Below are positions 8,633-20,654 of a stretch of DNA of 60,188 bases, piece after piece. The position numbers and the translations under genes were made by a program. The notes below the pieces were generated by a model. It did not search any database, had not been told where the DNA came from, and worked only from the letters and a program-made list of their open reading frames with translations. The stretch comes from Bacteroidales bacterium (lineage in GTDB: Bacteria > Bacteroidota > Bacteroidia > Bacteroidales > F082). The stretch covers positions 1 through 60,188 of the forward strand of contig JAFSJF010000147.1 of assembly GCA_017439405.1 (NCBI GenBank). Reading direction: 5' to 3'. The stretch's first letter is position 1, and every line of letters starts with the position of its first letter.

Positions 8633-11600
8633 TCAGCGTTTCATGAATTTGAATGTCCGACTGCCGAGGCGAATGAGATAGAGGCCTGAAGCCAAGTCGT
8701 CGATGGCAATCTCAGCATCGCTGCTGAGTGTCAGCGTCTTGACCAGAATGCCTTGAGCGTTGAAAACCTCTGTTTGGGTTTCGCCTTCAAGTCCGTCGAT
8801 GTGGATGCGGTCGTTGGCGGGATTGGGGTAAAGGACGGTGGCGGTGTTTAGGAATTCGTCCACGTCGGTGGTCCTGAAGAAGGCGGCCAAGACGAGGTCT
8901 TGGGTGACAATGATTTCCCTCGGGTTGTCGGTGTTGTCGTCGCTCCACTTGATGAACCTGTAGTCGTCGGAAGGGATGGCGGCGAGGGTGGCTGTGCTGC
9001 CTTCTTCGTAAGTCCCTGCACCAATCACAAAGCCTTGGGTCTCTTCATAGTAAACGGTGATGGTGTAGGTCTGTACGGGCTTTGTCTCGAAGGAAGCCGT
9101 ATAGGTGGCGTTTTCGGTGACGGTGACGGAGCGTGGATTGTCGGTGTTGCCGTCTTGCCAGCAGACGAAGCGGAATCCTGGATGTGGGGAGGCACCGATG
9201 TCGATGACTGTGTTGGCTGAGAAATTGCCACTGCCATAAGTCGAGCCCATCAATGGGTTGTCTGATTTCACCTCGATGGTGTAGTAGGTTTCCATTTCGG
9301 CGAAGAAAGCCGTGAATGTGGTGTCTTGTGTCACGGTTATCAGGCGAGGATTGTGCATGTCGCCGTCGTCCCATTGCTTGAAATAGGCGTTTTCGTTGGG
9401 CGTGGCGCTGATTTGCATAGTGGCTCCTTCGGGATAGGTGCCGCTGCCTTCGACAGAACCCAATTCAGGGTTGTTGCAGAGGACGGTCACAGTATATTCC
9501 GGTGTCCCGTTTTGGTAGAACAGGGCGATGAATTCCGCATCCCTTCTAACAATGACGGTGCGCGGATTGCTGGCGATGCCGTCGCTCCAGCAAAGGAACA
9601 TGTAATTGTCGTTGGGCGTTGCGGTCAGCGTGATGGTGTCGCCGTAGTGGTAAGTACCGCCACCGCTGACCGTGCCGCCTTCCTCGGGATTGCTCTGTGT
9701 GGTGATTTCGTATTCCAATCGGTTGAATTCGGCAAGATAGATGGCGTTGCCTTCCACGAATACGCTTCTTGGGTTTTGCAAAGCTCCGTCGCCCCATTGG
9801 ACAAACACATAGCCTGGGTTGTTGCGGGCCATAAGCTGTATGATTTCGCCGTATCCGTAAGTGCCTTGTCCGTCAACCGTTCCGGCCCCTTCGGGTGTCA
9901 CTTCGGCCTTGATGGTGCATTGTTGCACGCCGATGTGTGCCGTGTAGAGGGCGTTTCCTGTGACGATGACGGTGCGTGGGTTGTCGGTGTTGCCGTCAGT
10001 CCATTCGACGAACTCGAAGCCCAAGTTGCCGAAGGCCTCGAGTTGTACGGTGTCGCCATAATGATACATGCCAGCACCGGTGACATAGCCCAAGCCGACA
10101 GGGGTCACTGCCGTCTCGATGAGGTATTCTCCAATGCTGAAATTCGCAACGAAAGTGCTGTCGCTCACGACGGTGATTTCTCGCGGATTGTCCGGGATGC
10201 CGTCGTTCCAGCCATCGAAGACGTAACCTGGGTTGGGCAAGGCCTCAAGGGTAATCGTCTCGCCGTAATGGTAGATGCCGCCCGGTGTCACAGTGCCACC
10301 GTCGGCAGGCGAAGACGAGGTCACAATCAGGTAGTCGATTTGCCTGAAGTGGGCGATGAACGTGCTGTCGCTCACAACGACGACTTCAAGCGGGTTGTCG
10401 GTGAGGCTGTCGTTCCAAAACAAGAACTCACAGCCGACGTTGGGAAAAGCCTCAATTGTGGCCGTGTCTCCAAAGGAATACGTTCCGCCTCCGCTGACGG
10501 TACCCCATCCCGTGCTGTCGGCTTCCACGGTGATATTGAAAGTGGGGAGGGGTGCAGCTGGTAGCACACATAGCGCGTTGATGGACTCACAATCCTCTGG
10601 CTGATAGAGGATTTCGCCGTCTTTCCATACGCCTAAGTTGTCGGTTTGGCCAGCATAATAGATGCCAGTCCCGTTGACAACCAATTCTCTGATTTCCGAG
10701 AATCCCGTTCTCGGATGGGCAAACAGCACTTCTTCATCGCGCCAAACATACATTGAGTCGTCGGCATAGCCAGCCAGAAAGATGCTGCTATCATATAAGG
10801 CGAGGGCATCGAAACCCGACTCGATGCTGGTGTCGATGATTTGGAAGACGATGGAGTCGTTTTGCCATAGTGTGGCTAAGGGCAGGCCGTTGGCGATACG
10901 GTATCCCGCCGCATAGAGGTTTGTGCCATCGAAGGCGATGCTGTAAATGGCTGAAACAGAGTCTTCTCGCCAAAGAATCGTATCGTTTTTCCAGACAGTG
11001 GCCTTCGCTTCCAGCTCGGCGGAGATGCCGCCAGAATAAATGTCGCCTGTGAGCGTGTCGATGGCCATGGCGTTGATTTGGTTGCCATGAATGCTGTCGC
11101 TGTAGGCATACAGGACCTCGCCGTTTTGCCAAATGAGACCCATAGTGTTCTCCCATTCGTTCTCTCCGACTCCCGCAGCAATCCAGTTGTCCCCATTGAG
11201 AATCAAAGCGTTGATGGCAGTGTTGGAGTCGGCTGCAAAGACAAGGCTGTCGTTCAGCCAGACGCGGCCTTGCACGAAGTCGTAGGTCGAGTCGTGGCTG
11301 TAGCCGGCGGTGAAGATGTTGCCTTCAGGCGCAACTTGCATGGCCGTCAGGTTGACAAGGGTCGTGTCTGATATGCTGTGAATCAGCGTGTTGTTTTTCC
11401 AAACTTTGCCAATGCCGCTGCCGCTGCCTGCGAAATAGATGTCTTGGGGTTGGGGCTGTGGCCCGTCCCAGTTGAAATAGGTCTTCACCGTCCAGTCGCC
11501 ATTGGACAGGTAATCCATATGCTCCCACTCAGTTCCGTTCCAGGCCCAGTTTCCGTTGCCGCTCGGGTCTGATCCGCTGCAAACACCTATAGGAAAAGGG

Positions 11601-12028
11601 GTCAGCGGTTGTTCGGTTTCCCAGACTATCCAGATGGTTTCGTCTCCCGTAACCCAAATAGGAGTGGAAAGGTCAAACTCAGCCCAGTCGCCAAGTCCTT
11701 GCGGCACATCGACGGTCATGGTATAAGCTATCGAGCCTTCGGCAGGTGTTTCACCGCCCAAATAGATGGAACAGGAATACAGGCCACCCACAGAATTGTA
11801 AAGGTCGTCGCTGAACATGCCCACTTTGGTGATTTGTGTACCAGCGTATTGGATAGCCATGTCTGGAGGATAGCATGTCGCGATAGTGGTGCGTGTCCCA
11901 TAGCTGATGGCATCATAGAATTCACTTGCGCAATAGGTGTGCCAACCATGCATTGGGCTGTTGCTTTGCGCAAAGGCCATTCCGCTGAAGGCCATCAGGG
12001 AAGAAAGGATTAGGAGATGCTTTTTCAT
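8633..12028 (-). CDS. T9SS-tailed surface protein with eight InlB-type B-repeats
   Basis: 1131 residues. Signal peptide ending AFAQS (~20). Residues ~25-190 form a beta-sandwich-like domain with conserved WVTGDETIWIVWE; the same opening is seen in many Bacteroidetes T9SS proteins. Residues ~195-495 hold repeated 'V W(K/Q)N D(T)...IYAAG/FLAGY' units, resembling a beta-propeller. Residues ~500-1045 contain eight ~70-residue divergent InlB B-repeats (pattern: ...GTV.G.GTY.YG......A.P..GY.F..W.DG...NPR...V..D....A.F). The T9SS tail (1055-1131) has VLYPNPANDRIHI, VFNAQGILVKTL and LASGLYLIRL. Probably an adhesin or repeat-based binding protein; no enzyme motif. It has its own promoter divergent from the B12 operon. 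Confidence 0.88.
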   Translation of the reverse strand: MKKHLLILSSLMAFSGMAFAQSNSPMHGWHTYCASEFYDAISYGTRTTIATCYPPDMAIQYAGTQITKVGMFSDDLYNSVGGLYSCSIYLGGETPAEGSIAYTMTVDVPQGLGDWAEFDLSTPIWVTGDETIWIVWETEQPLTPFPIGVCSGSDPSGNGNWAWNGTEWEHMDYLSNGDWTVKTYFNWDGPQPQPQDIYFAGSGSGIGKVWKNNTLIHSISDTTLVNLTAMQVAPEGNIFTAGYSHDSTYDFVQGRVWLNDSLVFAADSNTAINALILNGDNWIAAGVGENEWENTMGLIWQNGEVLYAYSDSIHGNQINAMAIDTLTGDIYSGGISAELEAKATVWKNDTILWREDSVSAIYSIAFDGTNLYAAGYRIANGLPLATLWQNDSIVFQIIDTSIESGFDALALYDSSIFLAGYADDSMYVWRDEEVLFAHPRTGFSEIRELVVNGTGIYYAGQTDNLGVWKDGEILYQPEDCESINALCVLPAAPLPTFNITVEADSTGWGTVSGGGTYSFGDTATIEAFPNVGCEFLFWNDSLTDNPLEVVVVSDSTFIAHFRQIDYLIVTSSSPADGGTVTPGGIYHYGETITLEALPNPGYVFDGWNDGIPDNPREITVVSDSTFVANFSIGEYLIETAVTPVGLGYVTGAGMYHYGDTVQLEAFGNLGFEFVEWTDGNTDNPRTVIVTGNALYTAHIGVQQCTIKAEVTPEGAGTVDGQGTYGYGEIIQLMARNNPGYVFVQWGDGALQNPRSVFVEGNAIYLAEFNRLEYEITTQSNPEEGGTVSGGGTYHYGDTITLTATPNDNYMFLCWSDGIASNPRTVIVRRDAEFIALFYQNGTPEYTVTVLCNNPELGSVEGSGTYPEGATMQISATPNENAYFKQWDDGDMHNPRLITVTQDTTFTAFFAEMETYYTIEVKSDNPLMGSTYGSGNFSANTVIDIGASPHPGFRFVCWQDGNTDNPRSVTVTENATYTASFETKPVQTYTITVYYEETQGFVIGAGTYEEGSTATLAAIPSDDYRFIKWSDDNTDNPREIIVTQDLVLAAFFRTTDVDEFLNTATVLYPNPANDRIHIDGLEGETQTEVFNAQGILVKTLTLSSDAEIAIDDLASGLYLIRLGSRTFKFMKR

Positions 12029-12144: not shown

Positions 12145-12152
12145 TATCTTTG
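12145..12152 (+). promoter_or_regulatory. -7 promoter box (TATCTTTG) of the cobalamin operon
   Basis: TATCTTTG just upstream of the cobalamin riboswitch; transcription should start around 12158-12162, immediately before the aptamer. The best TTTG upstream (12118-12121) is 23 bp away, longer than usual. Confidence 0.65.
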
Positions 12153-12161
12153 CCGCCGATA

Positions 12162-12320
12162 AGCGGTGCCGCAAGGCTCAATAGGGAATCGGGTGAGAAT
12201 CCCGTACAGTTCCCGCTGCTGTATGCTCTTCAAACTGGCCATTACGCCACTGAAAACCAATACTTTTCGGGAAGGCGGCCAGCCTCAAGGAGTAAGTCAG
12301 AAGACCTGCCGCCTGTCGCT
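12162..12320 (+). ncRNA. Cobalamin (B12) riboswitch
   Basis: The order of conserved elements matches the cobalamin aptamer: a GGTGCCGCAAGG-type 5' arm, then 'AATAGGGAATCGGGTGAGAA' with 'TCCCGTACAGTTCCCGCTGC' (the P3-P6 core: G-G-G-A-A-x-C-G-G-T-G-x-x-A-A-x-C-C-x-G), CCACTG near 12248, and the B12 box AGTCAGAAGACCTGCC ending at 12310. The 5' end sits directly at the expected transcription start. Downstream, CCTTAT/ATAAGG (12354-12372) could form part of the expression platform, but no canonical terminator is visible, so control may be at translation. The next gene starts at 12450. Bacteroidetes B12 riboswitches lower expression of uptake genes when adenosyl- or other cobalamins are plentiful. 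Confidence 0.92.
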
Positions 12321-12449
12321 GAAACGAAGCTTTCGGGACAAGAGCTGGCGTTCCCTTATCTATACAATAAGGTGTACCGACCTTATCCTTGAAGTTTTTA
12401 AGTAGGAAGTTAATCCATTAATTATCAAACTTTTAAAACTTAAAGTATT

Positions 12450-13703
12450 ATGCAGTTCAAAAGATTTACTCGTGGGTTCCTTCTGGGAATCTTCGGTCTT
12501 TTCACGACCAACCTGTTCGCGCAACAGGATGCAACAATCGATCCTGCCGAAATCCTCTATTGGGTAGGCGAAGGTGAAAACGAAGTCGTAGTGGCCATCA
12601 GTTGGTGCAGCTACACTGAAACCGCTCTGGCTTGGGGCTATCGTTTCAACGGCGAGGCCACTGTCTTCCAAGCCCTTACTGACATTGCCGCTGCCGACGA
12701 CCGCCTGACTGTTGTCGGTTCGGCTCCCACCAATGTCACTTACGTTGATGAGGTGTACGACCTGACCATGTGCCCCAACCCAAATTCACAATGGGGCGAC
12801 GATGACTATGATGTTCCCATGCACAGCGTGAATGGCTTGATGGGCCAGAACATGATGTCTGCCGAACCAATCCACAACAGCGACTTCGTAAAGGTTGGTG
12901 GCTATGCTTGCAGCGTCATTTCCGACGACTGGACCACCATTTCCTGGCCTACGGAAATCATCCCCGCCACCAACCCGAATGAAATCGTTGATGCCACCAT
13001 TTCCGCCGACGAAATCAAGTATTGGATCGGCGAAGGCGAAAACGAAGTCGTGGTGGCCATCAGTTGGTGCAGCTTCACTGAAACCGCTCTGGCTTGGGGC
13101 TATCGTTTCAACGGCGAGGCCACTGTCTTCCAAGCCCTTACTGACATTGCTGCCGCCGATGGTCGTCTGACGGTTGTTGGGAACGCCCCTTCCAATGTCA
13201 CATATGTGGATGAAGTGTACAACTTGACCATGTGCCCCAATCCGGATGCACAGTGGGGCGATGACGATTACGACATCCCCATGCACAGCGTGAATGGTTT
13301 GATGGGTCAGAATGCGATGGTTGCCGAACCGATCCAAAACGGCGACTTTGTGAAGATTGGAGGTTATGCTTGCAGCATCATTTCCGACGACTGGACTACC
13401 ATTGCGTGGACACAACCTATTGAGGCGGTCAGCGTCTATACCGCAGTGAATGAAAACGCTATCGCCACGCTTGCGGTGTGTCCCAATCCCGCTGAGAGTG
13501 AGACCTTCGTGACCCTCGAAAACGACGGTTTGAATGAAGTCTCTGTCTATGACATGCAAGGCCGCTTGGTCAGCAAGCAAAGCTTTGTGACCACTGCCGG
13601 CGAGCAAGTGCGCCTCAACGTCGAGGCGCTCAACAGCGGTGTGTATTTCGTCCGCGTGAGCAACGAAAGCGCTGTCCAAACCGCCAAGTTGGTCGTGAAA
13701 TGA
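12450..13703 (+). CDS. Secreted protein with two copies of a B12-operon-associated domain and a T9SS tail
   Basis: 417 residues, first gene behind the B12 riboswitch. Signal peptide to FAQQ (~25). Two ~154-residue domains (about 26-168 and 180-322) share the motif I.YW(V/I)GEGENEVVVAISW, then ALAWGYRFNGEATVFQALTDI, a 'D.RLTVVG' block, and 'WGDDDYD.PMHSVNGLMGQN'. The two domains are near-identical in DNA over 12598-12690 versus 13060-13152, a recent duplication. The C-terminal T9SS tail has AVCPNPAESETFV, VYDMQGRLVSKQ and LNSGVYFVRV. I do not recognise a named Pfam domain; the 'WGYRF.G' type of domain recurs in B12-regulated loci of other bacteria, from memory. By context it is a candidate surface cobalamin-binding or capture protein. 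Confidence 0.8.
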   Translation: MQFKRFTRGFLLGIFGLFTTNLFAQQDATIDPAEILYWVGEGENEVVVAISWCSYTETALAWGYRFNGEATVFQALTDIAAADDRLTVVGSAPTNVTYVDEVYDLTMCPNPNSQWGDDDYDVPMHSVNGLMGQNMMSAEPIHNSDFVKVGGYACSVISDDWTTISWPTEIIPATNPNEIVDATISADEIKYWIGEGENEVVVAISWCSFTETALAWGYRFNGEATVFQALTDIAAADGRLTVVGNAPSNVTYVDEVYNLTMCPNPDAQWGDDDYDIPMHSVNGLMGQNAMVAEPIQNGDFVKIGGYACSIISDDWTTIAWTQPIEAVSVYTAVNENAIATLAVCPNPAESETFVTLENDGLNEVSVYDMQGRLVSKQSFVTTAGEQVRLNVEALNSGVYFVRVSNESAVQTAKLVVK

Positions 13704-14683
13704 TGAAAAGGTTTTTCATACTGATGATGGCTATGGTGCCAGTGGCGTTGTGGGCGCAGTTTGCTCCCGCACAAGACAAGCCTGGCACCACAGCCATGCA
13801 TGCCGATTCGTCGGCGTTTGTCGGATGGGCCACAGGAATAGAAGTCGTACATGGCCCGATGAACATCGCCGACCCCAGCTTGGGTGTGACGGGGGCCAAT
13901 TACCCTGATGAGAACGCCTTGGGTTATCCCGAGGGCACGTTTGGCGTGGTTTGTCTCGGCGATGGCGGCATGGCCACCTTGACCTTCGCTTCACCCATTT
14001 GCAATCGTCCTGGCCCGGATTTCGCCGTGTTTGAGAATGGGTTTGCCAATGCCTTAAACCCTGATACATGGGCACTTGAGCTTGCTTTTGTGGAAGTGAG
14101 TTCTGACGGTGAGCATTTCTTCCGTTTCCCTGTTTACAGCAATACGCAAACGACGACACAGCTCGCCAATGGTGGCACGATTGACCCTTCGCAGATCCAT
14201 AATTTAGCGAGCAAGTATGGCGCAATGTATGGCACTCCTTTCGACCTTGACGAGGTTGAGGACAACCCGCTTTTCGACAAAAACCGTGTCACGCATGTCC
14301 GTGTTGTCGATGTCGTCGGTTGTATCGACTCGCTGTATGCCTCCTATGATTGCCAAGGACATGTTATCAACGACCCGTGGCCTACGCCCTTCGCAAGCAG
14401 CGGCTTCGACCTCGATGCCGTCGGCGTGATTCACGACTTGGCGCATTTTGATGTGTCTGAAAACGAGGAAGAGCTTGTTTCCTTGTATCCCAACCCTGTC
14501 ATGGGGGTGTTGAATGTAATGGCGAAGGAATTGCAGTCAGTTGATGTCTATAACCTTGTCGGACAGCAAGTTATGGCTTCAAAAGAATCCGTCCTCGACG
14601 TAAGTTCATTAATGGATGGCATTTACTTTGTCCGAATCGTTTGCGAAGGCGGGATGGTTACAGAACGCATTGTGAAACAATAA
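13700..14683 (+). CDS. Secreted B12-operon surface protein with T9SS tail
   Basis: 327 residues, overlapping the previous gene by 4 bp (ATGA). Signal peptide to VALWAQF (~20). The body (22-245) has the pattern seen in 'cell surface proteins' next to TonB/B12 loci: GWATGIEVVHGPMNIADPS, YPDENALGYPEGTFGVVCLG, 'FAVFENGFAN', 'WALELAFVEVSSDGEHFFRF', 'LASKYGAMYGTPFDLDEVED' and a final GFDLDAVGVIH. This resembles a galactose-binding/discoidin-like beta-sandwich with a bound ion, but that is inference. The T9SS tail (255-327) reads SLYPNPVMGVLNV, VDVYNLVGQQVMA, DGIYFVRIV. Together with its neighbours it is likely part of an outer-surface system that captures corrinoids. Confidence 0.78.
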   Translation: MMKRFFILMMAMVPVALWAQFAPAQDKPGTTAMHADSSAFVGWATGIEVVHGPMNIADPSLGVTGANYPDENALGYPEGTFGVVCLGDGGMATLTFASPICNRPGPDFAVFENGFANALNPDTWALELAFVEVSSDGEHFFRFPVYSNTQTTTQLANGGTIDPSQIHNLASKYGAMYGTPFDLDEVEDNPLFDKNRVTHVRVVDVVGCIDSLYASYDCQGHVINDPWPTPFASSGFDLDAVGVIHDLAHFDVSENEEELVSLYPNPVMGVLNVMAKELQSVDVYNLVGQQVMASKESVLDVSSLMDGIYFVRIVCEGGMVTERIVKQ

Positions 14684-14695
14684 ATTGAAAGAAAA

Positions 14696-15763
14696 ATGAA
14701 AAGAAATCATCTGTTTTTGCTGTTGGCCTTGGCTGCGATGCTGTTCTCCTGCAAGCCGGATCAGCCGGTCACTCCAAGTGGATACAGCATTGGGTCGGGT
14801 GTCTTAGTGCTCAATGAGGGGAATTTCCAGTTCTCCAACGCCTCGCTGAGTTTCTACGACCCTCAAGCCGACACGGTGGCCAACAATTTGTTTTACAAGG
14901 TGAACGGCGCCCCGCTTGGTGATGTGGCGCAAAGTATGGCTTTGGCCGATGGCAAGCTTTACATTGTGGTCAACAACAGCAACTTGATTTATAAGGTGGA
15001 TGCCAACTCGTTAGTGTGCGACACCACCAAACCTTTCAAACTCACCGATTTCTATTCTCCGCGTGAAATGCACGTCGTGGCCCCTAACAAGGCCTATGTC
15101 ACCGACATCATGGGCACAGTCCTTTGGATTGTCAATCCGCAGGACATGAGCCATTCGGGTGCCATCGAGATGGGCAAATCGACCGAGAAGATGGTGCAGG
15201 TCGGCAACGAGCTGTATGTCAGCAACTGGTCGAACTACTATGTTCCTGGCATGGAGAAGAACACCGTTCAGGTTGTGGACATCAGCAACGACGTGAAGGT
15301 GGCAGAAATCACGGTCGGCAAGGAGCCGAACTGCATGGCGGTTGACAACAGCGGCCATGTTTGGGTGCTTTGCGAAGGCGCCACTTGGGAGGCCGACGGC
15401 GAGAATCCCACCTTGTGGGAAATCGACCCGATGCTGAAGACCGCCACCAAACGCTATGAGTTTGAAGGTACAGCTATAATCCTGAAAGCCAATGCTTCGG
15501 GTTCGGCACTTTATGTCTTCTACAATAGCGAGGTGCGCCGCTTCGACATCACCGCTTCGGCCTTGTCGGAGAGCTTCAGCATCGCTGCTCCTGAAGGCGG
15601 CACATTCTATAATATGGCCGTCAATCCCAAAAACGGCGACCTTTATGTGACCGACGCGAAGAACTACATGACCAATGGCACTGTCTATCGCTATTCCGAA
15701 GACGGCGTGCTGCTTTCCTCATTCGAGGCAGGCATCATTCCCAGTGCAATGTTGTTTAAATAA
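14696..15763 (+). CDS. BtuG-like surface beta-propeller lipoprotein (YncE/DUF5074 family)
   Basis: 355 residues with a lipoprotein signal (LAAMLFSCKPD, Cys ~19). The mature protein is a YncE/DUF5074-like seven-bladed beta-propeller: 'GVLVLNEGNFQFSNASLSFYD', 'DVAQSMALADGKLYIVVNNS', 'SPREMHVVAPNKAYVTDIMG', 'VQVGNELYVSNWSNYYVP', 'GKEPNCMAVDNSGHVWVLCEG' and 'GIIPSAMLFK' at the end. Bacteroides BtuG, which binds cobalamin at the cell surface with extreme affinity and caps BtuB, belongs to this family and is likewise riboswitch-controlled. Here no TonB-dependent BtuB lies in the operon, so the partner transporter must be encoded elsewhere. Family assignment is strong, the exact BtuG role is inferred from context. 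Confidence 0.82.
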   Translation: MKRNHLFLLLALAAMLFSCKPDQPVTPSGYSIGSGVLVLNEGNFQFSNASLSFYDPQADTVANNLFYKVNGAPLGDVAQSMALADGKLYIVVNNSNLIYKVDANSLVCDTTKPFKLTDFYSPREMHVVAPNKAYVTDIMGTVLWIVNPQDMSHSGAIEMGKSTEKMVQVGNELYVSNWSNYYVPGMEKNTVQVVDISNDVKVAEITVGKEPNCMAVDNSGHVWVLCEGATWEADGENPTLWEIDPMLKTATKRYEFEGTAIILKANASGSALYVFYNSEVRRFDITASALSESFSIAAPEGGTFYNMAVNPKNGDLYVTDAKNYMTNGTVYRYSEDGVLLSSFEAGIIPSAMLFK

Positions 15764-15800
15764 TTGATATTCTCTTGAGGGATCGCAAATCCCCAACCCG

Positions 15801-15829
15801 GTTCGGGCGGATGGCAAATCCGCCCGAAC
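15801..15829. repeat. Short palindromic repeat (GTTCGGGCGGAT / ATCCGCCCGAAC)
   Basis: Perfect 12-bp inverted repeat with a 5-nt loop, just after the BtuG-like gene. The same CGGATT...CAAAT..CGCCCGAAC core recurs at 16114-16139. It could act as an attenuator or mRNA stabiliser inside the operon. Confidence 0.75.
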
Positions 15830-15871
15830 TTTCTAAAATAGTTCAACAATTCAACAGTTCAACAATCAACA

Positions 15872-16036
15872 ATGACCAAAACCTGCCCCCGTTGCGGAAA
15901 AACATTCGAGTGCGTCCATTCCGTGGACTGCTGGTGCGTGAAGGTGAAGCTCACCGACGCCACGAAAGCCTATTTGAAGAAGCATTACAGCGACTGCCTG
16001 TGCAAAGACTGTTTGGAGGAAATCAATGGAAAGTAA
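15872..16036 (+). CDS. Cysteine-rich CWC family small protein
   Basis: 54 residues, too short for most gene callers. It opens MTKTCPRCGKTFEC and contains the diagnostic C-W-C triplet (DCWCVKVKL), ending with DCLCKDCLEEINGK. Eight cysteines in CxxC-like pairs suggest a metal-binding zinc-ribbon-type fold, as in the Cys_rich_CWC family. It ends 10 nt inside the next ORF, so it is part of the B12-regulated operon or its distal unit. Its function is unknown; in other bacteria CWC proteins also turn up beside cobalamin and metal-transport genes, from memory. An A-rich direct repeat (TTCAACAA) lies just before its start. Confidence 0.8.
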   Translation: MTKTCPRCGKTFECVHSVDCWCVKVKLTDATKAYLKKHYSDCLCKDCLEEINGK

Positions 16037-17264
16037 AGGCATACGTAGTGGTTCATTCGGATTTGTAATCCGAATGTTGCGAGATGGGGATTTGAAATCC
16101 CCGCTTACATTGCGGTCGGATTGCAAATTCGCCCGAACCTATAGTTCGCTTTGTGCTTTGTTCCTTGTTTTATTAGTCGCCTGTACTCCAAAGACAAAGG
16201 AAAGCGTCAAGCCAACTCATGGCGACAACCTGATGCGCTATGCGAAAAACATCTCCATCTACGAGAAAGACTACGGCTATCGCGCCGAGGTGCTCTGCCC
16301 TTGGGACACCACGCTTTCGTTAGGCTCGTTCGCTTTCGTCAAGGACACGACAAAGGCCGTTGATACTGACGTGAAAGGCGTTTTGAATGTCCCCGTCAAT
16401 TCGGTGATTTCGTTTTCAGCCACGCAATGGGCTGTTTTTCTGCGTCTTGGCGAAATCGACCGCGTGAAAGGCATCCTCGAAGGCCGTTTTGTGCACGATT
16501 CTACGATGCTTGGCCTGTTGGCACAGGAAAAGGTTTACGACATTGGCACTGAGGCCGCTGCCGACGTGGAGCGGATGATCCAGCTGAAGCCCGATGCCTT
16601 GCTCTATTCGCCCTATTTCGACGGCAACCAAGGCGGCCTCAACGTCACGGGCGCGGTGCTTTTCCCCTTCGCGGACTACATGGAGAACACGCCTTTAGGT
16701 CGCGCCGAGTGGATTCGCGTGATTGGAATGCTGGCGGGCTGCGAGGACAAGGCCGACGCTTGGTTCGACGACATCGAGCGGCGCTACAACGCGCTTTCGG
16801 GGCTTTGCGCCAACGTGGAGCACCGCCCGACAGTCTTCTCCGACTTGGCCTTCAACGGGCAGTGGTATGTGGCTGGAGGCCGAAGCTATATCGCGAAACT
16901 CTTTGCCGATGCCGGCGCCGACTACATTTGGAAAGACAACCCTTCGACGGCAAGCGTCCCGATGGATGCCGAAAGCATTCTGGATAAGGCGCAAAAGGCT
17001 GATTATTGGCGCGTTATCAACTCCTTGCCCACGCCCATGACCTATGCGACCTTGGCCAAGGAAAATCCTGTCTATCCGCTTTTCGATGCCTTCAAGAAGC
17101 ACCAAATCATCGTTTGCGACATCCTCTCGACCGGCTATTTCGAGCAGTCGCAATGCGAGCCTGACCTTCTTTTGGCTGACTTCATCCATTTCTTCCATCC
17201 TGAACTCCTCACCGGCGAATGGGCTGGTTATCAGCCGAGATACTATCATTTGATGGGGGAGTGA
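16026..17264 (+). CDS. BtuF-like ABC transporter substrate-binding lipoprotein
   Basis: 412 residues from ATG 16026. The mature protein (from C53 of LVLLVACTP) is a TroA/FecB/BtuF-type periplasmic binding protein: 'PVNSVISFSATQWAVFLRLGEIDRVKGI' (class III N-lobe start), 'VERMIQLKPDALLYSPYF', 'GRAEWIRVIGMLAGCEDKAD', 'VFSDLAFNGQWYVAGGRSYIAKLFADAGADYIW', and C-lobe 'DFIHFFHPELL'. Residues 1-38 are encoded by dispersed palindromes and are not part of a normal signal sequence; the start may really be ATG 16074 or an alternative codon nearer the hydrophobic stretch. Given its place after a B12 riboswitch and a BtuG-like gene it most likely binds a corrinoid for an ABC importer (BtuCD) encoded elsewhere; iron-siderophore is the alternative. 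Confidence 0.82.
   Translation: MESKGIRSGSFGFVIRMLRDGDLKSPLTLRSDCKFARTYSSLCALFLVLLVACTPKTKESVKPTHGDNLMRYAKNISIYEKDYGYRAEVLCPWDTTLSLGSFAFVKDTTKAVDTDVKGVLNVPVNSVISFSATQWAVFLRLGEIDRVKGILEGRFVHDSTMLGLLAQEKVYDIGTEAAADVERMIQLKPDALLYSPYFDGNQGGLNVTGAVLFPFADYMENTPLGRAEWIRVIGMLAGCEDKADAWFDDIERRYNALSGLCANVEHRPTVFSDLAFNGQWYVAGGRSYIAKLFADAGADYIWKDNPSTASVPMDAESILDKAQKADYWRVINSLPTPMTYATLAKENPVYPLFDAFKKHQIIVCDILSTGYFEQSQCEPDLLLADFIHFFHPELLTGEWAGYQPRYYHLMGE
16054..16139. repeat. Cluster of three dispersed palindromes overlapping a gene start
   Basis: Inverted repeats CATTCGGATT/AATCCGAATG (16054-16063/16067-16076), GGGGATTT/AAATCCCC (16086-16093/16095-16102) and an imperfect one at 16114-16139 related to the 15801 palindrome. 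They lie inside the 5' end of the BtuF-like reading frame. Confidence 0.8.
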
Positions 17265-17357: not shown

Positions 17358-17573
17358 ATGAGCAAAAAGGAGCAAGACATATTGTACTTTGTATCATTTT
17401 GCATTGAGCAATACAAGCACGAGATGGGCATGAACGGCTCGGACGTGATGGATTTGTTCGACCGAACAGGCCTGTTGGAGTACCTTTCAGAGAATTATGA
17501 GGTGCTTCATACCCAAGGCCATCGTTGGCTTATCGAGGAAATGAAGGACTATCTGGAAAGGAGGGCATCATGA
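17358..17573 (+). CDS. DUF3791 domain-containing protein (putative antitoxin)
   Basis: 71 residues. The sequence 'ILYFVSFCIEQYKHEMGMNGSDVMDLFDRTGLLEYLSENYEVLHTQG' has the DUF3791 layout: a first helix 'F..F.IE.YK...', the G-x-x-V-x-x-x-F short turn, then L-x-x-Y-L-x-x-x-Y-x-x-L-H-x-x-G. DUF3791 genes commonly precede DUF3990 genes in gut Firmicutes and Bacteroidetes. The stop overlaps the next start by 4 bp (ATGA), so the two proteins are made together. All-helical, acidic small partner upstream of a possible enzyme: antitoxin-like. Function not proven. Confidence 0.75.
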   Translation: MSKKEQDILYFVSFCIEQYKHEMGMNGSDVMDLFDRTGLLEYLSENYEVLHTQGHRWLIEEMKDYLERRAS

Positions 17574-18052
17574 GGCTCTATCACGGAAGTTTGGTGGCCA
17601 TTGAGAAACCCAAGATTCTGAAGCCATCAAGACCTTTGGACTACGGAAGCGGTTTCTATACGACCACATCTTTCGAGCAGGCAGAGCAGTGGGTACACAG
17701 AAAACTATCTGACAAACAGCCGCTTGGATTTGTCAATGTATATGAGTTTCAGGAATCGGCCTTGGATTTGGTCGATAGTCTGACATTCAAGCAAGCTGAC
17801 GAGGAATGGGTGGACTTCGTGATGCAAAACAGGTTGAATCCTGACTTTAGACACAATTACGACATTGTTTATGGTCCTGTGGCCAACGACACGGTGTATG
17901 CGCAATTCTCCTTGTTCGAAGGCGGACTGATAAGCAAAAGCACACTCATAGAGGAACTTAAGGCCTATAAGCTTATTGACCAAATGCTTTTCCACACCGA
18001 AAAAGCATTGGCATTTTTGACCTTTGTAAAAGCTGAGGAGATAAAGCGATGA
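17570..18052 (+). CDS. DUF3990 protein, putative ADP-ribosyltransferase-like toxin
   Basis: 160 residues from ATG 17570; an upstream in-frame ATG (17525) lies within the DUF3791 gene and the internal start has a good GGAAAGGAGG site and an ATGA overlap. The N-terminus MRLYHGSLVAIEKPKI then LDYGSGFYTTTSFEQAEQW is the DUF3990 hallmark: an 'LYHGS' strand followed by 'G.GFY.T....A..W', which resembles the H and (S/Y)TS/Y positions of the diphtheria/PARP-like ADP-ribosyltransferase fold. The third motif is 'YDIVYGPVANDTVY' near residue 100. DUF3990 is placed in the ADP-ribosyl superfamily in my memory. In this operon setting it may be the toxin. Confidence 0.75.
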   Translation: MRLYHGSLVAIEKPKILKPSRPLDYGSGFYTTTSFEQAEQWVHRKLSDKQPLGFVNVYEFQESALDLVDSLTFKQADEEWVDFVMQNRLNPDFRHNYDIVYGPVANDTVYAQFSLFEGGLISKSTLIEELKAYKLIDQMLFHTEKALAFLTFVKAEEIKR

Positions 18053-18441: not shown

Positions 18442-18749
18442 CTAAGGCAAATAGTCTTGGCCAGAGAAAGCGCATTCTTCGCTTTGTTCCTCGTAGTGAA
18501 CCTAGACACTTCACTAAAAAGTAAGAAGAGGAGTGATAGAAGATGGTGCTTTCACTGTTTAGTTTGTGTATTCCTGCACTTACATAAACAGTGGAGCAAG
18601 CCATTACTTGATGTTTCTTTTCTTACGGGAAGTCTAGGCCCAACTACGGGAAACATGTTGAGTTTGGGAGGCTCCGCTCTGTTACCGTTTAAATCCAAAG
18701 TCTAACATGCCGCCTTGGGCTGATGGGGGCAAAAAAAAAGGAGGTTTTT
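18442..18749 (+). ncRNA. Long structured leader RNA upstream of the BspA-like gene
   Basis: About 308 nt between the promoter and the ATG at 18750, with no good ORF. Readable helices: AAAGCG/CGCTTT (18467-18486 area); CCTAGAC (18501-18507) with GTCTAGG (18632-18638); inside it GTAAGAA (18521-18527) with TTCTTAC (18620-18626) and a perfect 9-bp stem CACTGTTTA (18553-18561) with TAAACAGTG (18585-18593); then a separate hairpin CATGTT (18654-18659)/AACATG (18704-18709) extended by GTTTGG/CCAAAG. The leader ends with G-rich and A9 tracts and a very strong AAAAGGAGG ribosome site, which is unusual in this phylum. It may be a riboswitch-like or thermosensor leader, or a separate ncRNA (for example a 6S-like RNA) whose 3' part runs into the gene. 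Confidence 0.55.
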
Positions 18750-20654
18750 ATGAAGAAAACAACTCTACTTCTGAAAGGACGATGGCGTACCGCCCTGCTC
18801 GTCCTGCTGCTGAGTGCGGCGGGGATGGCAAATGTGTTCGCCGATGGTTACGACTATGCCGAGGTTTGCCCCTCGGGACAGACGTTGTATTACAAAATCG
18901 ATCCGGATGACCCCAATAGTGTCATTGTGGTTCCACCGTATTATTATCATTTTGATGGACAAAGTGCTCCGATATATGAATTCTGGGGACAAGGTTATGA
19001 GAAACCTGTAGGCGATGTGATTATTCCTGAAACATTAAGCAACGGTGTGGTTGTGAAAGAAATTGGTTATTGTATTCTGAGCGGGCCTATGTTTTTGGGT
19101 GCTTTTCAGGATTGTACGGAAATCACTTCTGTTACCATAGGTAATTCTGTTATTGAAATCGGTGGCTCTGATATGTATGGTGGTGCCTTTAGTGGATGCA
19201 CCAATCTCACTTCTGTTGTTTTTGGCAATGCTGTTACAATCTTTGGAGCAAGAGCTTTTTCTGGTTGTACGAGCCTTACATCTGTAACGCTTCCCAATTC
19301 GGTGACTATGATTAATCAACGTACATTTGAGGGTTGCACAGGTCTCACATCAATTACCATCCCCAATTCCGTGACTTCCATTGGGAACCGAGCGTTTTCT
19401 GGTTGCAGAAAACTCTCTTCCATTACTATTCCAAACTCTTTAAAAACCATTGGTTATGAGGTGTTTGAAGGTACGGAGTGGTATAATAGTCAGTCTGATG
19501 GAATCTTGTATTTGGACAACTGGTGCATCGGTTGGAAAGGCGAAATGCCCTCAATTGGAGAGCTTGTCATTCGAGAGGGAACAAGAGGCATTGCCGATGA
19601 TGCTTTTGGACCGGGACCGAAAAAAAATAGAAGCTTTACTTCTGTCGCATTTCCCCAATCTTTGGCTTTCATCGGGAAAGGCGCATTTTATGGTTGCTCA
19701 GGTCTGACTTCCATCAATCTTCCCAATTCTTTGGTTGCTATTGGAGAGAGCGCTTTTGAATACTGTTCTGGCCTTACTTCAGTCACAATTCCAAAAGCAG
19801 TGACGGAAATAGAGCGTGATGCTTTCTATAATTGTTCTCGGCTCTTTCAGGTTTACTATGATGCCGAAAACGCCACGGCGTCTAACGGTGTTTTTAAGCG
19901 TTGTGAAAATCTTGCCACATTGAGTATTGGCCCAAACGTGAGAAGCATTGATGAAAATGTATTTAAAGACTGCAACACGGTGCATCTCGTGGTTGCCTTG
20001 GGTTCAAATCCCGCTTCATTAGGTACAAGTGCGTTCTCCGACATTGCGGAAAACTCCATGCTCATGGTGCCGTGTGGCAAACGCATGACCTATTTCGCCG
20101 CATGGAACATGTTTCCCTACGACAACATCCTTGAGAATTGCGACCAATTCCCGATTTCGATGGGCAACATTGGAGCAGGCGGTAGCATCACATCTTCCAC
20201 ATCGAATGCGCAAATGGGCGAGGAAGTACAACTCACCATTGCACCCAATGCAGGCATGGCCTTGGAGTCCATCACCATCAGTAATGCCAACGACCCCGCG
20301 CAAACCATCCCTTATTATTTTATTGGTAAAGCGAATGACAAAGTTGGCTTTGTCATGCCTCAGTTTGCAGTTTCGGTTTCAGCCACCTTTAAGACCAGCA
20401 GTGCATCGGTTGGGGAGAACGATGGCGTTTGTGTTTCCATCTATCCCAACCCCACCAACGGCCAAGTCAAAATAGAAGCAGAAGACCTCAAGCAAATTAC
20501 CATTAGCAACATGCTTGGGCAACGCATTTATGAAGGCGAGGCTATCGGCAATGTGTTTGCATACGATTTAGGCAAGCATGGCGCGGGGCTTTACCTTATC
20601 AGGATAGAGACCGCAAGCGGCGTGGCGGTAAAGAAGGTTTCCGTTACGCAGTAA
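18750..20654 (+). CDS. BspA-like leucine-rich repeat protein with T9SS tail
   Basis: 634 residues from ATG 18750 (strong AAGGAGG site 8 nt upstream; the ATG at 18723 precedes that site and is not used). Signal sequence MKKTTLLLKGRWRTALLVLLLSAAGMANVFADG. Residues ~95-440 contain about ten LRR_5 (BspA/TpLRR) repeats of 23 residues, consensus 'F.GCT.LTS.T(I/L)P.SVT.IG..AF'; they are broken by an insertion with 'NSQSDGILYLDNWCIGWKGE'. Residues ~475-560 form a beta-sandwich module. The T9SS tail (565-634) includes SIYPNPTNGQVKI, ITISNMLGQRIYEG and AGLYLIRIETASG. Likely a surface adhesin; BspA proteins bind fibronectin or other bacteria in Tannerella and Treponema. Confidence 0.9.
   Translation: MKKTTLLLKGRWRTALLVLLLSAAGMANVFADGYDYAEVCPSGQTLYYKIDPDDPNSVIVVPPYYYHFDGQSAPIYEFWGQGYEKPVGDVIIPETLSNGVVVKEIGYCILSGPMFLGAFQDCTEITSVTIGNSVIEIGGSDMYGGAFSGCTNLTSVVFGNAVTIFGARAFSGCTSLTSVTLPNSVTMINQRTFEGCTGLTSITIPNSVTSIGNRAFSGCRKLSSITIPNSLKTIGYEVFEGTEWYNSQSDGILYLDNWCIGWKGEMPSIGELVIREGTRGIADDAFGPGPKKNRSFTSVAFPQSLAFIGKGAFYGCSGLTSINLPNSLVAIGESAFEYCSGLTSVTIPKAVTEIERDAFYNCSRLFQVYYDAENATASNGVFKRCENLATLSIGPNVRSIDENVFKDCNTVHLVVALGSNPASLGTSAFSDIAENSMLMVPCGKRMTYFAAWNMFPYDNILENCDQFPISMGNIGAGGSITSSTSNAQMGEEVQLTIAPNAGMALESITISNANDPAQTIPYYFIGKANDKVGFVMPQFAVSVSATFKTSSASVGENDGVCVSIYPNPTNGQVKIEAEDLKQITISNMLGQRIYEGEAIGNVFAYDLGKHGAGLYLIRIETASGVAVKKVSVTQ

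Follow-up and report, generated by a model that had tools for sequence, protein, structure and literature searches.

The 60,188-nucleotide (nt) stretch analysed here (the window; contig JAFSJF010000147.1 of a Bacteroidales bacterium, GenBank assembly GCA_017439405.1) carries a cobalamin riboswitch followed by five genes, all on the + strand: gene 1, with a duplicated transcobalamin-beta-like domain; gene 2, encoding a BtuH-like protein; gene 3, encoding a BtuG lipoprotein; gene 4, encoding a small CWC protein; and gene 5, encoding a BtuF-like binding protein. We find that this locus is very probably a vitamin-B12-controlled corrinoid-capture operon, in which the products of genes 1 and 2 would be binders secreted by the type IX secretion system (T9SS) that feed a BtuG/BtuB-like import route. 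The riboswitch, the gene order, the T9SS tails, the predicted folds, the co-occurrence and the single BtuB-like, FecCD, PF01497 and SprA matches on which we draw were all computed here.

Predicted folds of the gene 1 domain and of gene 2

Gene 1 holds two copies of one domain of ~150 residues, as a preliminary description of this DNA had reported. That description knew no name for the domain, a statement that no longer holds, because named relatives were found: DUF4430 and the transcobalamin beta domain. The relation to DUF4430 was seen through other family members, using two alignments, one of the broader family (A1, 35 members) and one of 50 domain copies with the window copy first (A3). At E up to 0.1, PF14478 (DUF4430) matches nine of the 35 A1 members (best E 1.5e-9) and 24 of the 50 in A3 (best E 3.8e-7); when 10 relatives were scanned singly against PF14478, five matched, four of them above the cut-off. 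Similarly, hhalign of A3 to ordinary DUF4430 proteins gives a probability of 91.4 and E 9e-7. A DUF3179 match to gene 1 was rejected as too weak (16.5 bits against a cut-off of 27).

An AlphaFold model of copy 1 (predicted local distance difference test, pLDDT, 89.6; least certain in residues 81-100, at 68-71) has the beta-grasp fold of solved transcobalamin-beta, DUF4430 and SLBB members. In VIA-align, which re-ranks the top Foldseek chains rather than searching independently, rows 1-14 are animal B12 carriers and rank 15 is the DUF4430 structure 3u7z; the structure prediction and search proposed earlier as a check thus led to the fold of the animal B12 carriers. Model strands 62-65 and 71-75, which follow helix 48-58, may form the beta-hairpin insert of these members. 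The window domain is 6-10% identical to the beta domains of animal haptocorrin, intrinsic factor and transcobalamin, and unlike these carriers it is part of a bacterial protein with tandem copies and a T9SS tail. Gene 1 consists of a signal peptide, two beta domains and that tail, which leaves no room for an alpha/alpha toroid, and the full transcobalamin/intrinsic factor architecture with its paired toroid is not found in it.

Bacterial transcobalamin-like SLBB/DUF4430 proteins were described by Burroughs et al. 2007, who predicted a role in B12 scavenging (PMC1796856). The gene 1 domain resembles DUF4430/SLBB proteins in its profile relation via relatives, in the fold match to 3u7z and in predicted B12 scavenging. 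The SLBB proteins named in that article come from low-GC Gram-positives, planctomycetes and euryarchaea and have CbiO/CbiQ-type neighbours, whereas the window system belongs to the Bacteroidota and combines a cobalamin riboswitch, BtuG/BtuF and the T9SS.

Several observations on these families stand beside the main argument. Copy-to-copy identity is 81% in the window (12522-13427) and 86% in its nearest relative, L090 (5728-6642), and the four copies form a clade of their own, which indicates a recent duplication or homogenisation; elsewhere in the clade, the first copies mostly cluster separately from the second ones. L165, a locus from another genome of the order, has a small ordinary DUF4430 protein behind a cobalamin-riboswitch match (91.6 bits with our own nucleotide model; 979-1194 and 1300-1749). 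In L171 (1213-2751), from an assembly that may hold foreign contigs, a DUF4430 domain is followed by a repeat-rich helical stretch that is toroid-like by eye, as in a full transcobalamin.

The predicted fold of gene 2 matches the C-terminal B12-binding domain of BtuH. Compared with BtuH2 and the BtuH domain of BtuG1 from Bacteroides thetaiotaomicron (B. theta), gene 2 has no significant sequence match, lacks the N-terminal Ig-like domains and carries a T9SS tail in place of a lipid anchor; with its one domain and its tail, the modelled protein is classed as BtuH-like only. Two other assignments of gene 2 were rejected: LIC_13355 is a weak row (27.4 bits against a cut-off of 120), and DUF4465/BtuJ gave no match (PF14717, DUF4465, matches neither gene 1 nor gene 2 at E up to 1) and occurs beside gene 2 in other loci.

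Riboswitch context and the slot before gene 2

In a survey of 295 genomes of the order, in which a profile made from the initial matches was then used to collect homologues, the gene 1 domain was matched in 33 genomes, the window's own included. The family profile gave 35 genes in 31 other genomes, leaving out a weak match in G152 that it did not confirm. With distances measured from stop-to-stop open reading frames (ORFs), 25 of the 35 genes are found within 237 nt downstream of a cobalamin riboswitch in the same orientation (including one, in L047, whose ORF overlaps the riboswitch), and a further seven lie 1.2-5.5 kb behind one. In a phylum search, the domain was present in only nine of 395 genomes and is thus not general in the phylum; among the seven additional genomes, five have an upstream riboswitch on the same strand and contig, at 0.1-4.9 kb. 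The preliminary description had raised the prospect that the domain might occur mainly outside B12-regulated loci; the 25 and seven of 35 genes, together with five of the seven additional genomes, argue that it does not.

We examined the neighbours of gene 2 by scanning named genomes with a gene 2 profile and retaining the 80 best loci out of at least 562, every one of them Bacteroidota-titled. The closest of these include metagenome-assembled genomes titled RUG (presumably rumen), yak and deer; the window represents a gut-type bacterium whose nearest relatives, among these best 80 loci, come from ruminant guts. A riboswitch nucleotide model built here, which recovered all 17 bare riboswitch sequences of a leave-half-out test, finds a riboswitch in 68 of the 80 loci, with all 69 matches on the gene 2 strand; several of the 12 loci without a match are on short contigs. 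The domain is present in 24 of the 80 loci, every one of which has a riboswitch, and DUF4465 in 21; the two are never found together (0/80). The chance figure for this lack of overlap, 1.3e-4, is not a true probability, because the loci are related and the locus sets overlap (at least four, L080, L081, L113 and L118, are shared with order genomes, as G101, G286, G160 and G110). The evidence for an exchangeable slot is therefore strong but not independent.

The typical order of these loci is riboswitch, domain or DUF4465, gene 2, BtuB and BtuG, and in the window's clade it is riboswitch, domain, gene 2, BtuG and BtuF; BtuB comes first in seven DUF4465 loci, and in L110 DUF4465 is not directly before gene 2. 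Both occupants of the slot also occur fused to the gene 2 domain, the gene 1 domain in L114 and L046-L048 and DUF4465 in L101 and L121. DUF4465, the family of BtuJ, is a family of B12 binders, eight distant members having been reported to bind B12 (PMC13398666). BtuJ/DUF4465 (PMC12751083, PMC13398666) resembles the gene 1 domain in its slot before gene 2, in its T9SS-type tail in these loci and in its gene 2 fusions, and differs in fold, which is an augmented jelly roll in BtuJ/DUF4465 and a predicted beta-grasp in gene 1.

Other occupants were seen as well. A third slot family, T9SS-tailed and propeller-like by eye only, and neither DUF4465 nor the transcobalamin-like domain, is found in nine loci (L106, L107, L123, L126, L128, L132, L137, L149 and L100); a Pfam search with its L106 member gave nothing beyond the T9SS tail. 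In L115, from Flavobacterium rivuli, a DUF5074 propeller with a T9SS tail is in the slot before gene 2. L114 (2196-9362, + strand) encodes a 2389-residue chain with five domain copies and a BtuH-like domain, behind a cobalamin riboswitch.

Delivery, import and alternative explanations

The two T9SS-tailed proteins claimed in the preliminary description are borne out by TIGR04183 matches in genes 1 and 2 (Table 1), and both genes have the features of type A cargo: signal peptides (by eye), sorting domains and a genome that encodes SprA (E 2.9e-161). With fusions counted in every group they belong to, T9SS-type tails are carried by all 24 domain proteins, all 22 DUF4465 proteins and 80 of the 82 gene 2 homologues. 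By contrast, such tails are seen in none of 49 BtuB and in four of 61 BtuG, and a further 44 of these BtuG have a lipobox. The model used to detect the tails was built here and draws in part on tails from these loci; in a Pfam check of the calls, PF18962 was found in six of six tailed proteins and in none of three BtuB. The earlier proposal of T9SS delivery is thus in line with conserved T9SS-type tails and the presence of SprA. We take IPR026444 to be the T9SS sorting domain. It is reported on 229 of 824 DUF4465 proteins (PMC12751083), in a text that uses neither the word T9SS nor type IX, so that sending B12 binders out of the cell by means of a C-terminal domain is not new. The preliminary description had also set the T9SS route in place of lipoprotein-only systems; BtuG of this operon still bears a lipobox.

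The operon encodes only the capture part of import together with BtuG and BtuF and, as noted earlier, no BtuB, BtuC or BtuD; BtuB-, BtuC- and BtuD-like genes are located elsewhere in the genome. There we found one relative of the TonB receptor of a B12 operon (34% identity over about 620 residues) and one FecCD permease match with an adjoining ATPase gene, named by eye; gene 5 is the sole PF01497 match in the genome. From these parts, a candidate route for complete import can be put together. Scarce cobalamin would permit expression of the operon through its riboswitch, and the products of genes 1 and 2 would be exported, secreted by the T9SS, and displayed, probably anchored at the surface, or released. 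Two kinds of putative cobalamin-binding module, the tandem transcobalamin/intrinsic-factor-type beta domains and the BtuH-type domain, would capture extracellular corrinoids. These would be received by the lipoprotein BtuG, seated on the BtuB-like outer-membrane transporter whose gene lies outside the operon, and import would be completed by BtuF and a BtuCD-like pair.

A number of observations weigh against this reading. The gene 1 domain copies fall below every Pfam and NCBIfam cut-off, the window copies scanned alone have no match at E up to 0.1, and sequence and profile searches with genes 1 and 2 (Pfam, NCBIfam, PDB) yielded no significant match other than the T9SS tail (as a control for the PDB search, a DUF4465 query recovered 9fct and 9hmu). 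The nearest relative, L090, has no PF14478 match; hhalign of A1 against DUF4430 is poor (probability 8, E 0.0043); and DUF4430 was not found in the window's genome and is present in only 11 of the 295 genomes of the order. The top 14 fold matches belong to one protein family, and fold likeness alone demonstrates no function; cobalamin binding by the gene 1 domain is a prediction, and the animal beta domain works together with the alpha/alpha toroid that gene 1 lacks. With respect to context, three of the 35 homologues have no riboswitch nearby (one lies 22 kb from a riboswitch, and the genomes of the other two, both from one family, contain no riboswitch at all), as do two of the seven additional phylum genomes (G537 and G534). 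Finally, the BtuB-like gene elsewhere in the genome has no riboswitch, which weakens the case for joint regulation.

Cargo of the T9SS can be either surface-bound or soluble, which leaves some chance, well short of even, that the products of genes 1 and 2 are released or vesicle-borne as diffusible corrinoid traps; type A tails, which are usually exchanged for a surface anchor, speak instead for retention on the producing cell. In B. theta, BtuJ acts on extracellular vesicles (PMC12751083), a point on the side of release. For the gene 1 repeats, the predicted basis of their binding role, the missing toroid partner and the divergence of the window lineage (copy 1 is 30-46% identical to the L076-L094 copies in A3, L090 excepted) would fit a reading in which only BtuH-like gene 2 and BtuG bind corrinoid and the repeats are spacers or bind the other proteins or the cell surface, but we regard this as unlikely: the domain holds the slot before gene 2 otherwise held by the B12 binder DUF4465, W14, G16, G18 and G39 are invariant across the 50 domain copies, and the isolated human beta domain binds cobalamin (PMC5599065). 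That the beta domain binds some other ligand under B12 control (metal, heme or degraded corrinoid) seems very improbable given its co-occurrence with cobalamin riboswitches, BtuG, BtuB and BtuF and the B12 carriers that are its best fold matches, even though the title of 3u7z calls it a putative metal binding protein and members of the SLBB superfamily are thought to bind varied ligands (PMC1796856).

The earlier reading as T9SS-based surface corrinoid capture is supported by the carrier-like fold, the BtuH-like gene 2, the riboswitch context and the DUF4465 slot. Going further, and only speculatively, genes 1 and 2 might be a split counterpart of intrinsic factor, in which one face of the corrinoid is clamped by tandem beta domains and the opposite face is covered by either the BtuH-like protein or the second beta domain, giving a composite extracellular trap of very high affinity; unrelated T9SS-tailed folds (transcobalamin-beta, DUF4465, propeller-like) would then be interchangeable modules of one slot in Bacteroidota B12 operons, competing with host carriers for B12.

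Operon features, neighbouring genes and implications

The host assembly is 3.53 Mb in 159 contigs (completeness 98.2%, contamination 5.2%), and the riboswitch that heads the operon, as first described, is the sole cobalamin riboswitch detected in it, at a score far above the gathering score (Table 1). The motif TATCTTTG is a candidate promoter element on the basis of TAnnTTTG, which we take to be the Bacteroidota -7 consensus; its T-A-T and T-T-T-G columns are unchanged across a five-locus alignment. In the hairpin that follows the aptamer, 16 of 19 columns are invariant across the five related loci. Its CGGGA is complementary to a TCCCG of the aptamer, so that a competing or kissing pairing is possible; a kissing loop, our first idea, is weakened because most of the partner sequence (CCCG) sits in a stem of the Rfam model. 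A search for a simple intrinsic terminator behind the aptamer found none, and the RNA folds computed for the platform did not clearly outscore those of shuffled sequences (z -1.22 and -0.58).

Table 1. Features of the operon, in positions of the window
Feature	Position	Strand	Evidence or description
Candidate Bacteroidota -7 promoter element TATCTTTG	12145..12152	+	read from sequence
Cobalamin riboswitch aptamer	12147..12327	+	RF00174 full-length match, 102.3 bits, gathering score 31.5, E 1.7e-24
Hairpin AGCT-TTCGGGACAAG-AGCT	12328..12346	+	possible expression platform; directly 3' of aptamer
Gene 1	12450..13703	+	signal peptide (by eye), two transcobalamin-beta-like domains, T9SS type A tail
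Transcobalamin-beta-like domain, copy 1	12522..12965	+	profile match; AlphaFold model of 12522-12971; VIA-align
Transcobalamin-beta-like domain, copy 2	12984..13427	+	profile match; 81% identical to copy 1
Gene 1 T9SS type A sorting domain	13482..13697	+	PF18962 53.4 bits, residues 345-416; TIGR04183 55.9 bits, cut-off 23
Gene 2	13700..14683	+	signal peptide (by eye), BtuH-like jelly-roll domain, T9SS type A tail; 327 aa
Gene 2 BtuH-like domain	modelled 13757-14461	+	predicted fold
Gene 2 T9SS type A tail	14483-14674	+	TIGR04183 44.2 bits, cut-off 23
Gene 3, BtuG lipoprotein	14696..15763	+	PF16819 (DUF5074) 78 bits; LFSC lipobox by eye
Gene 4, 54-aa cysteine-rich CWC protein	15872..16036	+	PF14375 48.5 bits
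Gene 5, BtuF-like binding protein	16026..17264	+	PF01497 80.7 bits

Genes 1 and 2 overlap by 4 nt. The BtuG-like propeller, the cysteine-rich CWC protein and the BtuF-like protein named in the preliminary description all recur in our profile matches. Gene 3 has the DUF5074 propeller, a lipobox read as MKRNHLFLLLALAAMLFSC and likeness to solved BtuG (E 4.2e-23 to the BtuG1 chain 8blw_B, E ~1e-58 to other chains). No signal peptide was seen in gene 4, whose relatives are 21 small ORFs, 20 of them from loci of the window's clade and a few being the same contig twice. For gene 5, a TTG at 16110 may, by eye, be the better start and would yield a lipoprotein signal. Imperfect CGGATTTGNAATCCG-type palindromes at 15808-15822 and 16058-16131 flank the CWC gene and reach the apparent start of gene 5 (five matches, one place counted on both strands, versus 0.62 expected), and may mislead the choice of start codon. 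Directly 3' of the operon is a DUF3791-DUF3990 gene pair (17358-18052, +; 63.8 and 159.5 bits) that looks like a small two-gene module, and a BspA-type leucine-rich repeat protein with a T9SS tail lies at 18723-20654 (+); on the other side, a divergent gene adjoining the riboswitch (8633-12028, -) encodes a 1131-residue T9SS-tailed protein with eight InlB-type repeat stretches.

The binder folds are not new in themselves: the beta domain is known from animals, DUF4430 has been predicted in other bacteria, and BtuH is known from B. theta. Searches of open-licence PMC papers did not turn up such folds serving as cargo of the T9SS in a Bacteroidota operon headed by a cobalamin riboswitch. What appear to be B12-controlled surface proteins, resembling the B12-gripping domain of intrinsic factor, suggest a so far undescribed capture route in gut bacteria. 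The analysis assigns to two protein families that lacked annotation a specific function in vitamin B12 capture that can be tested, and it locates the fold of human intrinsic factor and transcobalamin, as predicted, among secreted, B12-regulated proteins of gut Bacteroidota. It also points to a replaceable operon slot filled by different folds, which in the loci examined carry T9SS-type tails and not lipid anchors. These results may bear on how gut bacteria compete for B12, with one another and with the host, and on the origin of the animal carriers.

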